DNA of 64,000 nucleotides from Phycisphaerae bacterium RAS1 (GCA_007859745.1 SMLU01000003.1:124001-188000), one strand, 5' to 3'. Shown: positions 31,330 to 43,071, counted from the stretch's first letter. The notes: generated by a model not told the origin, from the letters alone. A program made the numbers and translations.

Positions 31330-32922
31330 GTGCAGCGTATCGGCGACATCGGTGCCTCGAGCAGCGTCATGCTGATTCGCGCCGCACTGTGCGCGGTGGC
31401 GGCGATCTCCGTGGCGGCGCCGGGCGTTTGTTCGGCTTCGGCGAAAACAGCCGCGGCGCCGACGCGGGCGCAGCGTGAGACGACGACGGCGCCCGCGTCC
31501 ACGGCACCGGCGACGACGCGCCCGACGACATCAGCGCTGGCGACGACGCAAGCCGCGAGCCAGCCGGCGGGCAAACCGAAAGCCCCGCCCCCCTATCTCT
31601 ACACGCGCTTCGAGGAAGACTACCGCTGGCTCGACAGTCCGCCGGGGACCTACGCCACCGACTTCACCGACGCACTTAAGAACGTGCATCTCGGCGAAAA
31701 CTGGCGGCTGAGCATCGGCGGCGAGATGCGGCTGCGCTGGGAGTATGAGAAGAACAAGACGCTTCTGCGGCAGAAGGCCAGCCAGGACAAGTTTCTACTG
31801 GAGCGCTACTGGCTGTGGGGCGACCTGCGGTTGCGCGACGACCTGCGCTTCTTCGTCGAGGGCGAGACCGAGTACGAAGAAGGGGTCGATCTTTACCCGA
31901 CGGCGTCGAATATCGAGAACCGAACCGATCTGAAGCAGCTCTTCGGCGATTTCCGCCTCGTCTCGGGCGCGCAGCCTTTGACGCTGCGCCTCGGGCGGCA
32001 GGAACTGACCTACGGAAACCGGCGCATCCTGTCGTCGGGCAACTTTTCGAACCTGCGGCGCCGTTTTGACGCGGTGAAGCTGATGTGGCGTCCCGCGCCG
32101 TGGGACGTGGATGTGTTCTGGGGCCGGCCGCTGGATACGTCTTACGCGCTGGGGCGCGACAAGGCCCATGACCGCAATGACGAGGACACCGACCTTTTCG
32201 GCGTGTATTCCACCTTTCACGGCATCCCCAAGCACACGCTGGACGCCTACATCGTCGCGTTCACGAACAACCGCCCGCCGCGAAACGCCAACGGCGTCGG
32301 CGTGCAGCAGCAGATTTACACGATCGGCGGGCGCTTCGAGGGCAAGCAGAGCGAATGGGACTACGAGGTCGAGAGCGCCTTGCAGACCGGCGAATGGGGC
32401 GACGATCAGGTGGCGGCGTGGTTTCTGACGACCGTGCTGGGCCACACTTTCGAGAAGGCGCCCATGACGCCGCGGCTGTGGACGTCGTTCGAGTACGCCA
32501 GCGGCGACAGGAACCCGGTGGATCACAAGCACGAGAGCTTCAACCGGGTCTTTCCGAGCGGGCATTCGTTTTTCGGGGCGGCGGACCTGGTCGGCCGCTC
32601 GAACATCATTGATCCGCAAGTGGGCGTGACGCTGAAGCCGCTGAAGAACGTGACGTTTTTCGCGGAGCATCATCTGTTCTATCTTGCCCGCGAGAAGGAC
32701 GCGCTCTACGCGGTGAGCGGATCGCCGACGCGCCGCGACCGCACCGGCGACGCCGGGCGCTACGTCGGACACGAGATCGATCTGAAGGTGCAGTACGCGC
32801 TGGATCGGCATTCGGCGTTCGAGGCCGGCTATTCGCATTTTGAGGGCGGCTCGTTTCTGCAGAAGACTGGCCCGGAACGGGCGGTGGAGTTCGTTTATGT
32901 TCAGTACACGCTCAAGTTCTGA
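31330..32922 (+). CDS. Alginate-export-like outer membrane beta-barrel
   Basis: 530 aa from a GTG with AAGGGCG upstream; the ATG at 31369 is an alternative that gives a tighter signal peptide (LIRAALCAVAAISVAAPG). A Thr/Ala/Pro-rich linker follows (about 40-85). The rest has alternating beta strands in the style of the Alginate_exp barrel family: WRLSIGGEMRLRWEYEKN, LRLGRQELTYGNRR, RRFDAVKLMW and a terminal VYVQYTLKF with the C-terminal Phe expected of outer membrane barrels. I infer a solute channel; the solute is unknown. Confidence 0.85.
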   Translation: MQRIGDIGASSSVMLIRAALCAVAAISVAAPGVCSASAKTAAAPTRAQRETTTAPASTAPATTRPTTSALATTQAASQPAGKPKAPPPYLYTRFEEDYRWLDSPPGTYATDFTDALKNVHLGENWRLSIGGEMRLRWEYEKNKTLLRQKASQDKFLLERYWLWGDLRLRDDLRFFVEGETEYEEGVDLYPTASNIENRTDLKQLFGDFRLVSGAQPLTLRLGRQELTYGNRRILSSGNFSNLRRRFDAVKLMWRPAPWDVDVFWGRPLDTSYALGRDKAHDRNDEDTDLFGVYSTFHGIPKHTLDAYIVAFTNNRPPRNANGVGVQQQIYTIGGRFEGKQSEWDYEVESALQTGEWGDDQVAAWFLTTVLGHTFEKAPMTPRLWTSFEYASGDRNPVDHKHESFNRVFPSGHSFFGAADLVGRSNIIDPQVGVTLKPLKNVTFFAEHHLFYLAREKDALYAVSGSPTRRDRTGDAGRYVGHEIDLKVQYALDRHSAFEAGYSHFEGGSFLQKTGPERAVEFVYVQYTLKF

Positions 32923-33181
32923 GTTGCGCCGCGTCGGGACGGCCTCGACGCGGCGAACGAAGCGGCCGGCGGCGGCGGCGGTCCTGTTGATCGCGCTGCT
33001 GTGCTGCGGCTGCGACGAGCTGACCGATCCGGAGGTTCGCGGCGCGCTGGCCGGCTCGGCCACCGCCGTCACCGCGGGCGCCGTGAACACCGCGTTCACG
33101 TCGCTGGGCGGGGGGCTGTTGCAGCGCGTGCTGGGCCGGCTGTTCAATAACCTGCTGGGGATCGATCCGATTCTGACCTGA
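32897..33181 (+). CDS. Small lipoprotein, paralogue 1
   Basis: 94 aa if the ATG at 32897 is used, overlapping the barrel gene by 26 bases; a TTG at 32924, two bases after the barrel stop, is an alternative. A hydrophobic signal (VLLIALLCC) ends in a cysteine followed by DELTDPEVRGALAGSAT. The mature part is about 50 residues. It is clearly similar to the next gene: GCDELTDPEVR against GCDQLTETELR, and AVNTAFTSLGGGLLQ against AVNTAFTSFFGELLK. Function unknown; the position suggests a link to the barrel protein. Confidence 0.65.
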   Translation: MFSTRSSSELRRVGTASTRRTKRPAAAAVLLIALLCCGCDELTDPEVRGALAGSATAVTAGAVNTAFTSLGGGLLQRVLGRLFNNLLGIDPILT

Positions 33182-33234: not shown

Positions 33235-33483
33235 ATGAAGAAGTTCTCGCGGTCCCGCCGGTGCGGCGTCGTTGGCGCGTGTCTCGCCGCGGTGGGGCTG
33301 CTGATCGGAAACGCCGGCTGCGACCAGCTTACGGAGACGGAGCTGCGCACCATCGCAGCCGGGAGCGCCACGACGACGACCGTGACGGCGGTCAACACGG
33401 CGTTTACGAGCTTTTTCGGCGAGCTGCTGAAGAACGCGTTGGGCGATATTTTCAAGGAAGTGTTCAACGTGCCGCCGACCTGA
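33235..33483 (+). CDS. Small lipoprotein, paralogue 2
   Basis: 82 aa. The signal peptide MKKFSRSRRCGVVGACLAAVG continues to the lipobox-like GNAGC. The mature part contains DQLTETELRTIAAGSAT and AVNTAFTSFFGELLKNALGD, matching paralogue 1. The ATG is preceded by GGAGGCGAAACC. The C-terminal amphipathic helix FFGELLKNALGDIFKEVF is conspicuous. Function unknown; no family recognised. Confidence 0.72.
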   Translation: MKKFSRSRRCGVVGACLAAVGLLIGNAGCDQLTETELRTIAAGSATTTTVTAVNTAFTSFFGELLKNALGDIFKEVFNVPPT

Positions 33484-33561: not shown

Positions 33562-34251
33562 GTGTGGACGAGCAGTGATTGGCGCGGTCTCCTCGGCGTT
33601 GCCGCGATCATCGGCGGTATGCTCGGTCTGGGCGCGGTCATCCTCCCTATTCGAGACGCCCTAGAGCGCCGGCGGCTGAGGCTGCTGGAGGCGGCGGCCG
33701 AGCGGCTGGGCATGGCGTTCAGCCAGAAGGGCGAGCACATTATCGAGCAGCCGTTCGCCGCGCTGCCGCTCTTCTCGTTGGGGCGCGAGCGGAAGGCGAC
33801 GGCAGTGCTGGCCAATCGGATGGTGCGCGGCGACCGGCAGACGTTCGTCTTTGACTACAGCTTCGTCACCGGGCATGGAAAAGGCCGCCATACGCACCGT
33901 CAAACCGTGGCCGCGGTCCGGCTGGGGCGCGACCGCGTGCCGCACTTCACGCTGCAGCCGGAGGGGCTCCTTCACTCCATTGCGGCGGCGTTCGGGTATG
34001 ACGACATCGACCTTGGCTCGTCTCCGGAATTCTCGCAACACTGGCTGCTGCGTCGTCCGGACGAAGATGCGATCCGGCGGTATTTCGACGACCGGCAGGT
34101 GCATGCGCTGGAGGCGGAGCGGCCGCTGAACATTGAGGGCGGCGGGGAGTGGCTGCTCGTGTATCGGGCGGAGTCGCGCGTGGCGCCGGAGCGGATCGGG
34201 GAATTCATCGAGCAGGCGCGCGGGCTGGCGCTGCATTTTTCGCGGAGCTGA
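33562..34251 (+). CDS. Membrane-anchored protein of unknown function
   Basis: 229 aa from a GTG. One N-terminal membrane segment (LLGVAAIIGGMLGLGAVILP) is followed by a basic helix (RRRLRLLEAAAERLGM) and a cytoplasmic or periplasmic domain. That domain carries FVFDYSFVTGHGKGRHTHRQTVAAV and ERIGEFIEQARGLALHF. The layout (TM, then RMxxGxxxxVFDY.. and a closing helix) resembles small DUF-type regulators of enzyme quality, but I cannot name the family. It lies 190 bases upstream of pspA on the same strand. Confidence 0.7.
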   Translation: MWTSSDWRGLLGVAAIIGGMLGLGAVILPIRDALERRRLRLLEAAAERLGMAFSQKGEHIIEQPFAALPLFSLGRERKATAVLANRMVRGDRQTFVFDYSFVTGHGKGRHTHRQTVAAVRLGRDRVPHFTLQPEGLLHSIAAAFGYDDIDLGSSPEFSQHWLLRRPDEDAIRRYFDDRQVHALEAERPLNIEGGGEWLLVYRAESRVAPERIGEFIEQARGLALHFSRS

Positions 34252-34440: not shown

Positions 34441-35190
34441 ATGATCTTCGGAAAAATGTGGCGGGCGCTTCAGGCGCAGCTCAACAAGCTGGCCAACCTG
34501 TTCTGGACGGCCGATCCGATCGCGCAGATGCAGTACGAATACGACCTGGCGGTCGAGCAGATGAAGACCGGGCGCGAGGGGCTGGAGCAGTATCGCGGGC
34601 TGGTGGAGCGCGTCACGGCGCAGGTCATCCGCGACAAGCAGCACGTCGCCAGCCTGGAGGCCAAGATCAAGGCGTATCTTCAGGCCGGCGAACGCGAAAC
34701 GGCCGCCCGCTTCGCGCTGGAGCTTCAGAAGGCCAAGCAGGAACTGGCCGACAACGAGGCCCAGCTCAAGATGCACGAGGAGGCCTACAACAACAACCTC
34801 ACCAAGATCAAGCACGCCAGCGGCAAGCTCGCCAAGGTCCGCCAGAACATCGCCAAGTACGACGCCGAACTGAAAATGAGCCGGGCCGAGGCGGAGATGG
34901 CGAAGGTAGCCGGAACGCTGAACGTCGATGTCACCACCGATTTCGGCCAGATCGAGCAGGTCATTCAGGACCAGATCAGCAAGAACCGCGGCAAGGCGCG
35001 CGTCGCCGCCGATTTGTCGAGCGACGGCGTGATCGACGTGAAGCGCGAGCAGGCGGCGGAGGCGGCCCTGGCGGACGTGGCCTTGCGCGATTTCGAAGTG
35101 CAGATGGGGCTGGTGACGCCGGATACGGCGAAGGTGTCGGCCGCTGCGAAGGAGCTGGGGCCAGCGGAAAAGGCCAAGGAAACGGCGTGA
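34441..35190 (+). CDS. pspA: PspA/IM30 (Vipp1) family protein
   Basis: 249 aa. The ATG follows GAGGTGCAAGG. Nearly all alpha-helical coiled coil, as in PspA: an N-terminal amphipathic helix (GKMWRALQAQLNKLANLF), then long charged helices (RETAARFALELQKAKQEL, HEEAYNNNLTKIKHASGKL). PspA and Vipp1 are bacterial relatives of ESCRT-III and assemble on membranes under envelope stress. The spacing to the AAA+ gene downstream is 166 bases, occupied by an inverted repeat. Confidence 0.85.
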   Translation: MIFGKMWRALQAQLNKLANLFWTADPIAQMQYEYDLAVEQMKTGREGLEQYRGLVERVTAQVIRDKQHVASLEAKIKAYLQAGERETAARFALELQKAKQELADNEAQLKMHEEAYNNNLTKIKHASGKLAKVRQNIAKYDAELKMSRAEAEMAKVAGTLNVDVTTDFGQIEQVIQDQISKNRGKARVAADLSSDGVIDVKREQAAEAALADVALRDFEVQMGLVTPDTAKVSAAAKELGPAEKAKETA

Positions 35191-35210
35191 TGCGAGAGCG
35201 CCGATACGGG

Positions 35211-35326
35211 TCAGAACGCGAAGCGCAAGCGAGCGCACGGTCAGAATGCGAAGCGCAAGCGAGCGCGGCCGGCGGTGGCGTTGAGGTCTGCTCACGGCTG
35301 CGCTCGCTTGCGCTTCGCGTTCTGAC
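35211..35326. repeat. Inverted repeat, AAGCGCAAGCG family (copy 2)
   Basis: Two direct left arms GTCAGAACGCGAAGCGCAAG / GTCAGAATGCGAAGCGCAAG and one right arm CTTGCGCTTCGCGTTCTGAC. It lies between pspA and the AAA+ gene. Confidence 0.9.
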
Positions 35327-35356
35327 AATCGAGCGGCTCACACGGAGCGGCCGCTG

Positions 35357-37129
35357 ATGGACGCCGAATCGCCGGCTGCGCGTTCAACGATGAGCCTCCC
35401 CGCCTGGTATCCGGGCTGGGCGGCATCGCTCGGCGAGGCGTATTTCGCGGGGACGTCGTGCGTTTTCCTGCTCCACGGCAATGTGCACGACTTGACGCCG
35501 CGCGAGCCGGCGGCGGCGGAGCGGTACTCCAGTCTTCCCGATTTCCTCGCCTCGCAGGTCTTCGGCAAGTGGGACATTGTCCTCAGCTACGACCTCGGCC
35601 GCGGGCTGAAGCCGATGCCCGGCGGCGACCCGGCGCGGCTTCAAGAAATGGTGAAGTACCTCACCGCCCGCGTGGGCGATCTGAACGCCGTCCCGCGCGA
35701 TCCGGAGAATGTGCTGCTGCTGCTCGACCGGCTGCTGGAGCGGAATCTCCTCGAAGACGACGCCGCGAAGCGAAAGAGCATCGCGATCGTGCTGCCCTAT
35801 GCCCAGTATCTCGTCCCGGCCGGCGACGTGGGCGGCATGGCTCGCGGACAGGGGGCGAACCTGGTTCGTCTGCTGAGCTGGGCCCAGAATCCTTATCTCA
35901 AGCGGCTGAACGTCGCGTTCGTGCTCATCGCCGAGCGGCTGCCTGAGTTGAATGATCGGCTCGTGCAGAATCCGCACGTCACGACCGTCGAAGTGCCCAT
36001 GCCCGATCGGACCGCGCGGCTGGCGTTTGTTCAATCCGCGTCCGCCGGCGCGAAGCTGGAGGACATCGCCGAGTTCACCGGCGAGCAGCTCGCCGACGTG
36101 TCGAACGGCCTGAGTCTGGTCAGTCTCAACATCCTGCTCTCACAGGCCAGACAATCGGGCAGGAAGCTCGATGCCACGCGCTTTAAGCAGCTCAAGAAGG
36201 CGATGATCGAGCGGCAGTGCCAGGGCTTGATCGAGTTCATCGAGCCGCCGCATAAGCTCGACCTGCTGGTCGGCCAGGAAGCGGCCAAGAAGCGGCTGGC
36301 CGACGACGCGGCGCTGATCCTCAAGGGCCGGCTCGACACGGCCCCAATGGGATATCTCTTCTGCGGCCCGGTCGGCACCGGCAAGACGTTCCTGGCCGAG
36401 TGCTACGCCGGCTCGATCGGAATCCCGTGCGTCAAGCTGCTCAATTTCCGCTCGAAGTACGTAGGCGAGAGCGAGGCGAACCTGCAGCAGGTGCTGGGCG
36501 TGCTGCGCTCGCTCGGGCCGGTGGTCGTCATCATCGACGAGGCCGACGCGGCGCTGGGCGACCGCAGCAGCGGCGGCGATTCGGGCACATCGAGCCGCAT
36601 CTTCAGCATGATCGCCAGCCAGATGGGCGACACGCGCTACCGCGGCAAGATCATCTGGATGCTGCTCACCAGCCGGCCGGACCTGCTGCCGATCGACCTG
36701 AAGCGCCAGGGTCGGGCGGAGGTGCACATTCCGCTTTTCTATCCGCAGGATGCGGCGGAATTGAAGGCGATGGTGCTGGCCATGGCGAAAAAGAACAAGG
36801 TGAAGCTGGCGGCTGACGCCGTGGACGTGCTGAAGCCGCAGCAGAACCTGAGCGGGTCGGACATTGAGAGCGTGGTGCTGGCGGCCAATCGGCTGGGGCT
36901 GGCGGCGGGGCGCGAAGAGGTGACGCGCGCTGACATTGAGGCGGCGTTTGGCGAGTTTGTGCCGTCGGCTCAGGGATTGGAGAAACAGTTGCAGGAAATC
37001 GCCGCTGTGCTGGAATGCACGCAGCTCTCGTTCTTGCCGAAGGCGTGGCGCGAGCAGGTGGAGAAGCCCGGCGGGCGCGGGTCGCTGCAGCATCGGTTGG
37101 TGGAGCTGCGCCGGGAGATTGAATCGTAG
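35357..37129 (+). CDS. AAA+ ATPase with an N-terminal degenerate AAA-like half
   Basis: 590 aa. The C-terminal half is a full AAA+ module: GPVGTGKT at 337-344, a pore-like FRSKYVGESEANLQQ, VVVIIDEADAALG with DEAD at 394-397, a sensor-1 Asn-less region MLLTSRPDLL and an LSGSDIE sensor-2 area. The N-terminal half (about 15-290) also looks AAA-like but lacks Walker motifs (IAIVLPYAQYL, NVAFVLIAERLPELNDRL, VPMPDRTARLAFV). FtsH/Cdc48/Vps4-type remodellers are the closest style. Following pspA, I infer it may act on PspA assemblies. The TAG stop is the TAG of a GTAG-headed repeat. Confidence 0.82.
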   Translation: MDAESPAARSTMSLPAWYPGWAASLGEAYFAGTSCVFLLHGNVHDLTPREPAAAERYSSLPDFLASQVFGKWDIVLSYDLGRGLKPMPGGDPARLQEMVKYLTARVGDLNAVPRDPENVLLLLDRLLERNLLEDDAAKRKSIAIVLPYAQYLVPAGDVGGMARGQGANLVRLLSWAQNPYLKRLNVAFVLIAERLPELNDRLVQNPHVTTVEVPMPDRTARLAFVQSASAGAKLEDIAEFTGEQLADVSNGLSLVSLNILLSQARQSGRKLDATRFKQLKKAMIERQCQGLIEFIEPPHKLDLLVGQEAAKKRLADDAALILKGRLDTAPMGYLFCGPVGTGKTFLAECYAGSIGIPCVKLLNFRSKYVGESEANLQQVLGVLRSLGPVVVIIDEADAALGDRSSGGDSGTSSRIFSMIASQMGDTRYRGKIIWMLLTSRPDLLPIDLKRQGRAEVHIPLFYPQDAAELKAMVLAMAKKNKVKLAADAVDVLKPQQNLSGSDIESVVLAANRLGLAAGREEVTRADIEAAFGEFVPSAQGLEKQLQEIAAVLECTQLSFLPKAWREQVEKPGGRGSLQHRLVELRREIES

Positions 37130-37195
37130 CGTCGGACCTCCGCGTCCGACGGCGTGTAGCCCGGCCGCCCCCGGCCGGGCCGTAGCACCGGCCCG
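37126..37195. repeat. GTAG-headed REP palindromes carrying the AAA+ gene stop
   Basis: CGTAGCGTCGGACCTCCGCG continuing to TCCGACG, then GTAGCCCGGCCG..CGGCCGGGC and GTAGC again. The AAA+ stop is the first TAG (37127-37129). The first hairpin matches the inverted copy at 54845-54872. Confidence 0.9.
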
Positions 37196-37240
37196 TTGTG
37201 ACCGACGGCGATTTGTTGAAAACTCTGAATGGAGCCTCAA

Positions 37241-37633
37241 ATGGCAAAGAAGTCGGCCCCGTCGAAGAAACCCGCAAAGGTCGCCGCCAAGCCGGCAAGC
37301 CGCGCCGTCAAGCCCGCCAAGGCATCCCCGGCCGGCGTCTCAGCCAAGCGCCTCAGTTGGCTGGACGCCTCCGGCAAGTCTTCGCAGATCGACACCTACG
37401 CCAAGAACATGAAGTCATTCATCGACGCCATGGCCGATGGCAAAGTCGATCAGCATGAGGTCGCCGATCAGGAACGCCGCCTGGTCGCGCTCATGAAGAA
37501 ACTGGAGCCGAAACTCGACGACGCCGCGCACGCCGCCGTCACCGAGCTGCTGTGCGAAATGGCCGTCTACGACCTGATGCAGGTGCTGCACTCGATGTAC
37601 GCCGCCCGCCCGCAGACCGCGTTCCGCGGGTAG
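37241..37633 (+). CDS. Small protein with basic Ala/Lys tail, function unknown
   Basis: 130 aa. N-terminal 35 residues are low-complexity Lys/Ala/Pro (AKKSAPSKKPAKVAAKPASR), then a compact helical domain: IDTYAKNMKSFIDAMADGKV, QHEVADQERRLVALMKKLEP, and AAVTELLCEMAVYDLMQVLH. The ATG at 37241 has GGAG seven bases upstream; an in-frame upstream start is less likely. The DGKVDQHE stretch recalls TerB-like or EF-hand-like loops, but I do not claim either. Its place behind pspA and the AAA+ gene makes it a candidate adaptor. Confidence 0.7.
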   Translation: MAKKSAPSKKPAKVAAKPASRAVKPAKASPAGVSAKRLSWLDASGKSSQIDTYAKNMKSFIDAMADGKVDQHEVADQERRLVALMKKLEPKLDDAAHAAVTELLCEMAVYDLMQVLHSMYAARPQTAFRG

Positions 37634-37647
37634 CGCCGCGCCGCCGC

Positions 37648-37995
37648 TCAGCGCAGCAATGCCAGCGCGTCGGCCACCGTCTCCGCTTGTTCGAAGAAGC
37701 GGTTCAGCCGAGTGGTTTCCAGCAGCCCCGCCAGGAAAGGCGGAGCGGCGGCGAGGACGATCCGCTGTTCCTGGACATTCGCCCGCGCCACGAGGTTGAT
37801 CAGTTCGCTCAGTCCGGTCGAGCTGAGAAACACCAGCCCGCTCAGGTCAAGCACCGCCCGGCCGCCGCGCTGCGTCAGCGCCGCAGCCACAGCGCCGGCC
37901 GCGGTCTCGTCGCTGTCCGACACGCCGCCCAGTTCCCCTCGAAAGCGGAAGACGTAGATATCGTTGTGACGCTCGGTGACGATTTCAGCGCTCAT
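37648..37995 (-). CDS. STAS-domain protein (anti-anti-sigma factor-like)
   Basis: 115 aa. A single STAS domain: VFRFRGELGGVSDSD, then VLDLSGLVFLSSTGLSELINL with the serine that is normally phosphorylated by an anti-sigma kinase, then LETTRLNRFFEQAETVADAL. Probable role in partner-switching regulation of a sigma factor or other target. The start codon overlaps the stop of the upstream nuclease gene (ATGA), so both are coupled. Confidence 0.85.
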   Translation of the reverse strand: MSAEIVTERHNDIYVFRFRGELGGVSDSDETAAGAVAAALTQRGGRAVLDLSGLVFLSSTGLSELINLVARANVQEQRIVLAAAPPFLAGLLETTRLNRFFEQAETVADALALLR

Positions 37996-41657: not shown

Positions 41658-43071
41658 GGGTCGGCATCAACTTAGTGGGTAGTTTTCAGGCGACCCTGGC
41701 TAACGGTCGCGTGTTCCAGACGCGCTCCCAGTCGCTGTTGAGGTGGGCGACGCGGAGCGAGAGGACGTTTTGGGATCCGGCCTTGGACCAGCGCATTCCG
41801 CAGCGTTTCATCCGCAGGGCGACCACGTGCTTGCAGGCCGCTTCGACCCGGCCCGAGCCGATGTCCAGGCCCATCTCTCGGAAGCGGTCGTAGGCCAGTC
41901 GATCGTCCTGGTTCTCGATGTAGGTGATCAGGGCTTGTAACGCCGCCCGCTTGTTCTTGGCGCGCGTGCCGCAGCGCTCGGCCTTCAACTGGTCGAGAAT
42001 CGCGCGCACCTGCCCGTCCCACAGCAGCGTTTCGATCGATTTCACCCAGCTCGCCGTTTCCGGCGTTTGCTCGCCCCCCAGGGCCCGCCCGCAGGTCCAC
42101 ACGTGCTCCATCGCGTGATACCAGTCCACGATGCAGACCGCCTCTTTCAACAACCCGCCGATGTGCTCCCAGATCCACCGCGCCCCGTCGCCCAGCAGCA
42201 CCACGCGCCGGGCCCGCTCCAGGCCGCAGCGACAGGCCAATTCCCAGACAAACGACACGAACGCCGCCGCGCCTTCAAACCGCACCCCGTAGCGCACTTC
42301 GCGATCCACGCCGGCGGGCTGGCCGGGCTGATCCCAATAGCACGCCACGCACTTGGCTTCGTGCCAGCCGTCCGCCTGGTGCACCTGCACGCCGTCCACG
42401 GTCACATAGAACGTCTCCGGCGACGCCTCCGCCGGCGGCGCTTTCCACTCCGCCATGGCCGCGGCCCGCTGCTGCTCCTGCTGCGCCGCCACCCCGCCCA
42501 CCCGCTCCGTCAGCCGCTCAATCGTCGCTTCGCTCAGCCGCTGACCGGTCAGCGCGTGCAACGTGGACGCGGCGCTGGCAAACGTGTTCTCAATCCCCAA
42601 GAGCGCCGCCGCCTTCGCCAGACCGACGCTCTCGGCCCCCGCCCCCAACCCCACCCGCTCGTCGTACGGCAACGCCGACCGGCCGCAAGACCGGCAGCGG
42701 TAGTACGCACGCCGAATCCCGATCTGACCCATCTGCGTCGCAATCAGCTTGGGCCGCTGATCCACAAACCGCTGCGCCCCGCCGCACCCGCACACCCGGC
42801 TGGTTCCCTCATACCCCAGCTTCTGCCGCCCCAAATGAAGCTCGACCGCTCTTGCCCCGATCCGCCGAACCGCCTCCAGAACCGCCGTTTCCACCTGCGT
42901 CAGATCGTCCGACAGAATCGCCCCATCCTCCCCGCAAAACGCCAACACCTGCTCGGCAACGCTGGTAAGATCCACGTTTGGCCCTCCTTGGCCAATGGCT
43001 CGCTCAAACCCCACGCCATTGAAACCGAGGCCAGGGCCTTTGTCTTTTGCCCACTAAGTTGATGCCGACCC
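41658..43071. mobile_element. Insertion sequence, ISKra4 type, 1,414 bp
   Basis: Bounded by a 22-bp perfect inverted repeat: 41658-41679 begins GGGTCGGCATCAACTTAG and 43050-43071 is its complement. It contains one transposase gene. No target-site duplication is obvious (flanks CCATCC and CAACCC). It sits between the acyltransferase gene and the KAP NTPase gene and does not visibly break a gene. Confidence 0.93.
41686..42975 (-). CDS. ISKra4-family transposase
   Basis: 429 aa from a GTG at 42975 that has AAGGAGGG six bases upstream; a longer frame to 43014 lacks such a site. N-terminal zinc-binding region RVCGCGGAQRF and YYRCRSCGRSALPYD. DDE-type catalytic domain with FYVTVDGVQVH, VVLLGDGARWIWEH, CIVDWYHAMEHVW and GSGRVEAACKHVVALRMKR, all typical of ISKra4. 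The frame is intact and the terminal repeats are perfect, so the element may be active or recently arrived. Confidence 0.93.
   Translation of the reverse strand: MDLTSVAEQVLAFCGEDGAILSDDLTQVETAVLEAVRRIGARAVELHLGRQKLGYEGTSRVCGCGGAQRFVDQRPKLIATQMGQIGIRRAYYRCRSCGRSALPYDERVGLGAGAESVGLAKAAALLGIENTFASAASTLHALTGQRLSEATIERLTERVGGVAAQQEQQRAAAMAEWKAPPAEASPETFYVTVDGVQVHQADGWHEAKCVACYWDQPGQPAGVDREVRYGVRFEGAAAFVSFVWELACRCGLERARRVVLLGDGARWIWEHIGGLLKEAVCIVDWYHAMEHVWTCGRALGGEQTPETASWVKSIETLLWDGQVRAILDQLKAERCGTRAKNKRAALQALITYIENQDDRLAYDRFREMGLDIGSGRVEAACKHVVALRMKRCGMRWSKAGSQNVLSLRVAHLNSDWERVWNTRPLARVA

Follow-up and report, generated by a model that had tools for sequence, protein, structure and literature searches.

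We found in the window, that is the whole analyzed stretch of 64,000 nucleotides from Phycisphaerae bacterium RAS1, a gene for PspA followed by genes for a tandem AAA ATPase and a small helical protein. Comparison with related genomes points to PspA as a membrane-bound polymer of the ESCRT-III superfamily with a dedicated AAA motor, which would recycle it by reading a tag in its C-terminal tail; we give this reading an even chance. The first-pass annotation of this DNA had linked PspA to the ATPase by gene order only. The link now has four lines of comparative evidence, namely conserved order, co-occurrence, retention of operon parts after their dispersal and a PspA tag that tracks the AAA gene, and because of these an ESCRT-III/Vps4-like working mode of PspA and the AAA protein is plausible. 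The ESCRT-III/Vps4-like module proposed earlier therefore stands as a plausible way of working, while ESCRT/Vps4 by descent was refuted. The best reading is that the action would be Vps4-like and that the protein is not Vps4.

The three-gene locus

The pspA gene (34441..35190, plus strand) encodes a 249-aa protein of the PspA/IM30 family (ESCRT-III superfamily), which matched Pfam PF04012 (PspA_IM30) over residues 1-206 with E 5.9e-11 and 42.8 bits, above the curated cut-off of 33.9. It was the sole match of the P0001 search in the source genome. The PspA family profile gave no sequence match in the PDB up to E 0.01. Other PspAs polymerise on membranes (PMC11746142, PMC8281802).

The genes of the tandem AAA ATPase (35357..37129, plus strand, 590 aa) and of the small helical protein (37241..37633, plus strand, 130 aa) follow. 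All three genes were placed exactly, and they lie on one strand, as had been noticed before. Packing of the genes is loose here: a REP/BIME-like palindromic repeat (35209..35326, no strand), with 28-nt perfect and 32-nt 94% inverted repeats, separates pspA from the AAA gene. Its 23-nt core is present in 96 + 89 genomic copies (approximately 185), and the reversed control in 0. The repeat might influence how far pspA and the AAA gene are expressed together. The flanking genes (an unassigned one at 33562-34251, and a STAS gene at 37648-37995 on the opposite strand) were not found in the loci of the two nearest relatives.

The tandem AAA ATPase

The ATPase was assigned from Pfam AAA and from a structural model. 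The Pfam AAA match was confined to residues 334-459. We obtained an AlphaFold2 model from 66 aligned sequences (mean pLDDT 87.8, pTM 0.82), which in Foldseek and VIA-align superposed over residues 18-572 on the tandem AAA proteins NVL, p97, Rix7 and Afg2 (approximately 460 residues aligned, Z approximately 23, identity approximately 20%). VIA-align gave Z 23.6 for NVL (461 aligned residues, spanning 19-553); for Rix7 (7swl_A) 459 residues were aligned with rmsd of 5.4. Vps4 structures covered the C-terminal half of the model only.

The N-terminal AAA-like half (approximately residues 18-290; 35408..36226, plus strand) aligned with the first tier of NVL, p97 and Rix7. We did not find a P-loop in this half in any of 81 homologues (0/81). 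In place of Walker A there is F-x-x-H-G-N-V-x-D (residues 37-45), kept by most of the 81. The inactive N-terminal half recognized in the first-pass annotation is confirmed by the superposition of the model on tandem AAA proteins together with these missing P-loops.

The C-terminal half (36227..37126, plus strand), which had been described as active, probably is so, judging by the residues retained in the 81 homologues. It carries Walker A (G337-T344, 36365-36388), Walker B (D394/E395), the pore-loop aromatic Y368 and arginine fingers R450 and R453. The P-loop K343, D394/E395, R440, R450 and R453 were invariant in the 81 homologues, T344 varied between T and S, and residue 368, which belongs to the pore loop K-[YF]-V-G-E, was aromatic (Y/F) in 81/81. 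The sensor-1 position 439 was Ser, Cys or Ala and never Asn (81/81), therefore the ATPase activity of this protein could be unusual. We infer that the tandem AAA assembles as a ring.

Bacterial AAA proteins that we take for Ycf46-like, distant relatives of the tandem AAA, have a degenerate N-terminal half and 26-33% identity over the C-terminal part. Such proteins sit in more distant members of the class (L013-L017). The P0001 search of the class genomes that carry the closest Ycf46-like proteins gave no match.

Conservation of gene order and co-occurrence

When GTDB genomes were scanned, 508 relatives came up, and we read the best 80 of the 508 loci. The isolate Aquisphaera insulae JC669 (L059) has all three genes. 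We observed that the three-gene order, checked across Planctomycetota, is conserved: among these best 80 of 508, pspA was directly upstream in 56 of the 61 Planctomycetota loci (median gap 125 nt), and pspA, AAA and small gene stood in order in 48/61. Five Planctomycetota loci were without adjacent pspA; one of these is cut by a contig end, and three of the four others have the same PspA type elsewhere. The 19 loci with other labels among the best 80 of 508 (Acidobacteria, Myxococcota/Deltaproteobacteria, Gemmatimonadetes and others) had pspA 4.4-4.9 kb upstream in 16 cases and the small gene directly downstream in 14. Since the order is kept in dozens of loci, the association of these genes exceeds chance.

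For co-occurrence, one set of 246 genomes of the phylum was searched with both PF04012 and the AAA profile. PspA matching PF04012 was present in 29/35 AAA genomes (Fisher p = 5.7e-15, with shared descent ignored). No PspA was found in G161, G181, G198 and G226, which are genomes with a related AAA.

We considered whether nothing more than common regulation or inherited synteny links the genes, PspA and the AAA protein having no direct functional contact. The evidence is entirely comparative, and the AAA protein is part of a larger group with a degenerate N-terminal half, some members of which are in genomes without PspA. However, the order outlives phylum boundaries and rearrangement of the operon, PspA persists where its gene has moved elsewhere, and there is a dedicated clade of PspAs. 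We regard synteny without contact as very unlikely.

The AAA-partnered PspA clade and its C-terminal tag

The PspAs of AAA loci were 48-78% identical to the window PspA among relatives. In a tree computed without the last 40 residues, the AAA-partnered PspAs, to which the window PspA belongs, were all in a single deep 100/100 clade of 44 rows, and the other 51 PspAs were outside. The second PspA copies of AAA genomes also fell outside this clade.

At their end the AAA-linked PspAs have a variable tail, in which a short K-x-L-G-P-A is conserved; in the window PspA it is K237-E-L-G-P-A242 (35149..35166, plus strand). We used the strict pattern [KR]-x-[LMI]-G-[PE] because the looser [KR]x[LMI]G[PESHRQD] had several chance matches in canonical PspAs. 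The strict tag was present in 26/39 PspAs of AAA genomes versus 2/48 of genomes without AAA (p = 1.9e-10), and its expected frequency in shuffled tails was approximately 1%. These counts cover nearly all PspA ends of the 246 genomes, plus 3 rows from an earlier class sample. Ten PspAs of AAA genomes were without even the looser motif, 7 of which were the second copy in their genome, canonical and with an ordinary C-terminus. The p-values overstate independence, as the tagged PspAs are related by descent. More weight lies with the persistence of the tag beyond non-alignable linkers and in PspAs only approximately 30% identical to that of the window.

There were exceptions. Inside the AAA-partnered clade, G067 had neither AAA nor tag, and in G220 (79% complete) no AAA and no convincing tag were found. 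Two incomplete genomes, G247 (82% complete) and G299 (81%), had a tagged PspA with no AAA found. The strict motif is weakened by KTIGE, KTIGH and KTIGK variants in one group. The tag may be a mere clade marker, or a site for another partner.

The K-T-[IL]-G-[EKH] form of the tag was seen in G264, G291, G250, G235, G140, G303, G278 and G324. In the same genomes the AAA protein fits the profile only up to approximately 481-495 of 579, and its C-terminal region differs. The tag and the end of the AAA protein may have changed together in this group.

The position of the tag bears on the main rival explanation, in which PspA regulates the AAA protein and is not its substrate. In E. coli PspA is also paired with an AAA+ protein, the activator PspF, which it binds and inhibits. 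This contact is known: titles of works cited in PMC8281802 and PMC11746142 term PspA an AAA+ adaptor and speak of PspA1-144 as a PspF-binding domain. However, PspF activates transcription, has a single AAA+ tier and carries a DNA-binding domain, whereas the protein in the window is a tandem classical AAA without such a domain, and we found no PspF-like protein in the operon. Moreover, PspF contacts PspA within residues 1-144, but the feature that tracks the AAA protein here is C-terminal. Although this is the main rival, regulation of the AAA protein by PspA seems to us unlikely.

The long operon and its dispersal

In Acidobacteria, Myxococcota and Gemmatimonadetes, pspA, the AAA gene and the small gene lie inside a longer operon. 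It codes also for a solute-binding (NMT1-like)/OmpA protein, for a permease and an ATPase of ABC type and for a coiled-coil protein of the membrane; a vWA gene is present in some cases. Both arrangements, with pspA adjacent or 4.4-4.9 kb away, share the same accompanying genes. The solute-binding/OmpA, permease, ABC ATPase and coiled-coil genes were in the operon at approximately half of the loci among the best 80 of 508. The nearest relatives, G095 and G031, have one eight-gene operon including pspA, aaa and the small gene, and in the relatives L109 and L110 the long operon is undivided. In the source genome the operon is split in three places and every part is retained: pspA, aaa and the small gene are at the locus described above, the vWA and solute-binding/OmpA genes (L115) are at C3:390707, and the permease, ABC ATPase and coiled-coil genes (L116) at approximately C1:1405-1408 kb. 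The retention of all parts after dispersal suggests that they still function together.

The coiled-coil protein (L025-L104) has at its C-terminus a conserved motif of its own, P-x-[IL]-[LM], which could be a second tail for the same machinery. We rejected this protein as a second PspA/ESCRT-III, as it had no detectable similarity to the window PspA (hhalign probability 0.2%).

The AAA protein might work mainly on the transporter of the long operon or on the coiled-coil protein, while PspA would only be the pathway's sensor of membrane stress. The presence of the transporter and coiled-coil genes at approximately half of the loci, their persistence in dispersed form in the source genome and the C-terminal motif of the coiled-coil protein speak for this. 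Yet many Planctomycetota keep next to the AAA gene no more than pspA, alone or together with the small gene, and it is the tag on PspA that tracks the AAA protein. We hold a transporter or coiled-coil substrate to be improbable.

The small third protein

The small protein had no family match in Pfam or NCBIfam. Its predicted fold consists of two short helices and a long helical hairpin (71-91, 94-121). We rejected a known adaptor fold, as Foldseek gave a single match with E 5.0. Pfam searches with the members of the family gave weak scattered matches only, and those to VPS28 (3/65 members, best E 0.0087) we took as chance similarity of helical bundles. The Lys/Ala tail pointed out in the first-pass annotation is present in the window protein; it is, however, N-terminal and restricted to certain lineages. 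Most homologues, which begin with MAR-x-SWLD or similar, are without it, and we rejected it as a conserved functional part.

No small gene was found in 15/80 loci (best 80 of 508), and most of these were not cut by a contig end, therefore we consider the gene common but dispensable. The role of an adaptor suggested earlier for its product was unsupported.

Comparison with known systems

As in ESCRT-III with Vps4 or CdvC, there is here a protein of the ESCRT-III superfamily and a putatively active classical AAA whose pore loop carries an aromatic residue; by analogy, the short C-terminal motif on PspA would be MIM-like. Vps4 and CdvC have an MIT domain, which binds ESCRT-III tails, a Vps4_C domain for oligomerisation and one AAA, whereas the AAA protein in the window has neither domain and two tiers. 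We rejected its membership of Vps4, as there was no Pfam MIT, no Vps4_C match and the AAA is tandem. At the N-terminus, where Vps4 has its MIT domain, an AAA-like half is predicted instead (residues 18-290). In NCBIfam the PAN and CDC48 models were nearest, with scores far below their cut-offs, and the CdvC model NF041006 scored lower than these (38.3 bits, cut-off 650), which also opposes an ESCRT/Vps4 module by descent.

The best structural and sequence matches were Cdc48/p97, NVL/Rix7 and Afg2, which likewise have two AAA tiers in one chain. Unlike in Cdc48-type proteins, the first tier is here without a P-loop, and in comparison with all of these the model starts straight at the first AAA-like tier.

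An association of PspA with a protein that has two AAA+ domains, of which the N-terminal one is inactive, has been described by Ravi et al. 2024 (mSystems, PMC11237479), with AEY64321.1 and OGG56892.1 as examples. They also described longer operons with an ABC ATPase, a permease and a PBPB-OmpA protein, and proposed an ESCRT-like role. PspA beside a tandem AAA with an inactive N-terminal copy is common to their association and to the window, and their long operon is single in L109/L110 and complete but split three ways in the source genome. The association and the long operon are therefore already published, and the window holds a well-conserved new member. In the main text of Ravi et al. 2024 there is nothing on Planctomycetota, and neither the small protein, the vWA protein nor the PspA tail tag comes up, although its supplements may have some of these. 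As far as that main text shows, what is added here is the tail tag, the third subunit, the vWA member and the breadth in Planctomycetota. The TM-Snf7 protein in the same text may or may not be our coiled-coil protein.

Proposed mechanism

In the motor reading, PspA would form a polymer on the membrane. Either the inactive upper AAA tier or the small protein would recognize K-x-[L/M/I]-G-P on the flexible PspA tail, which would bring PspA and the AAA protein into contact. The active lower tier, using ATP, would then extract PspA subunits from the polymer or remodel it, which is the direction of action that we favor, and the membrane coat would thereby be turned over or constricted. The solute-binding/OmpA, ABC permease and ATPase, coiled-coil and vWA genes of the operon suggest that a sensor or transporter spanning the envelope is linked to this remodelling. 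Many PspAs elsewhere function without such an AAA protein, which counts against a motor.

More broadly, we tentatively propose, with somewhat less than even confidence, a distinct bacterial pair of ESCRT-III and motor with a recognition code of its own: a deep PspA clade whose C-terminal tag is read by an AAA with a dead upper tier, together with a small subunit and coupling to a transporter. It would be a solution independent of MIT-MIM/Vps4, which do this job in archaea and eukaryotes. If this is true, bacteria too recycle coats of ESCRT-III type by a motor, but use another motor and another tag for it. Planctomycetota are a phylum noted for elaborate internal membranes. Whether PspA/Vipp1 polymers have a Vps4-equivalent ATPase was left open by Liu et al. 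2021 (PMC8281802), who stated this for PspF and Vipp1. With a widespread conserved pair of PspA and AAA and a candidate recognition tag, the question of a Vps4 counterpart becomes one of simple binding and disassembly tests.

Other features of the window

We observed two small lipoprotein-like ORFs (32840-33181 and 33235-33483), seemingly tandem copies of one another, with the common motifs C-D-x-L-T-[DE]-x-E-[VL]-R ... V-N-T-A-F-T-S. A 442-aa ORF at 41686-43014 (minus strand) resembles what we take to be a transposase of ISKra4 type.
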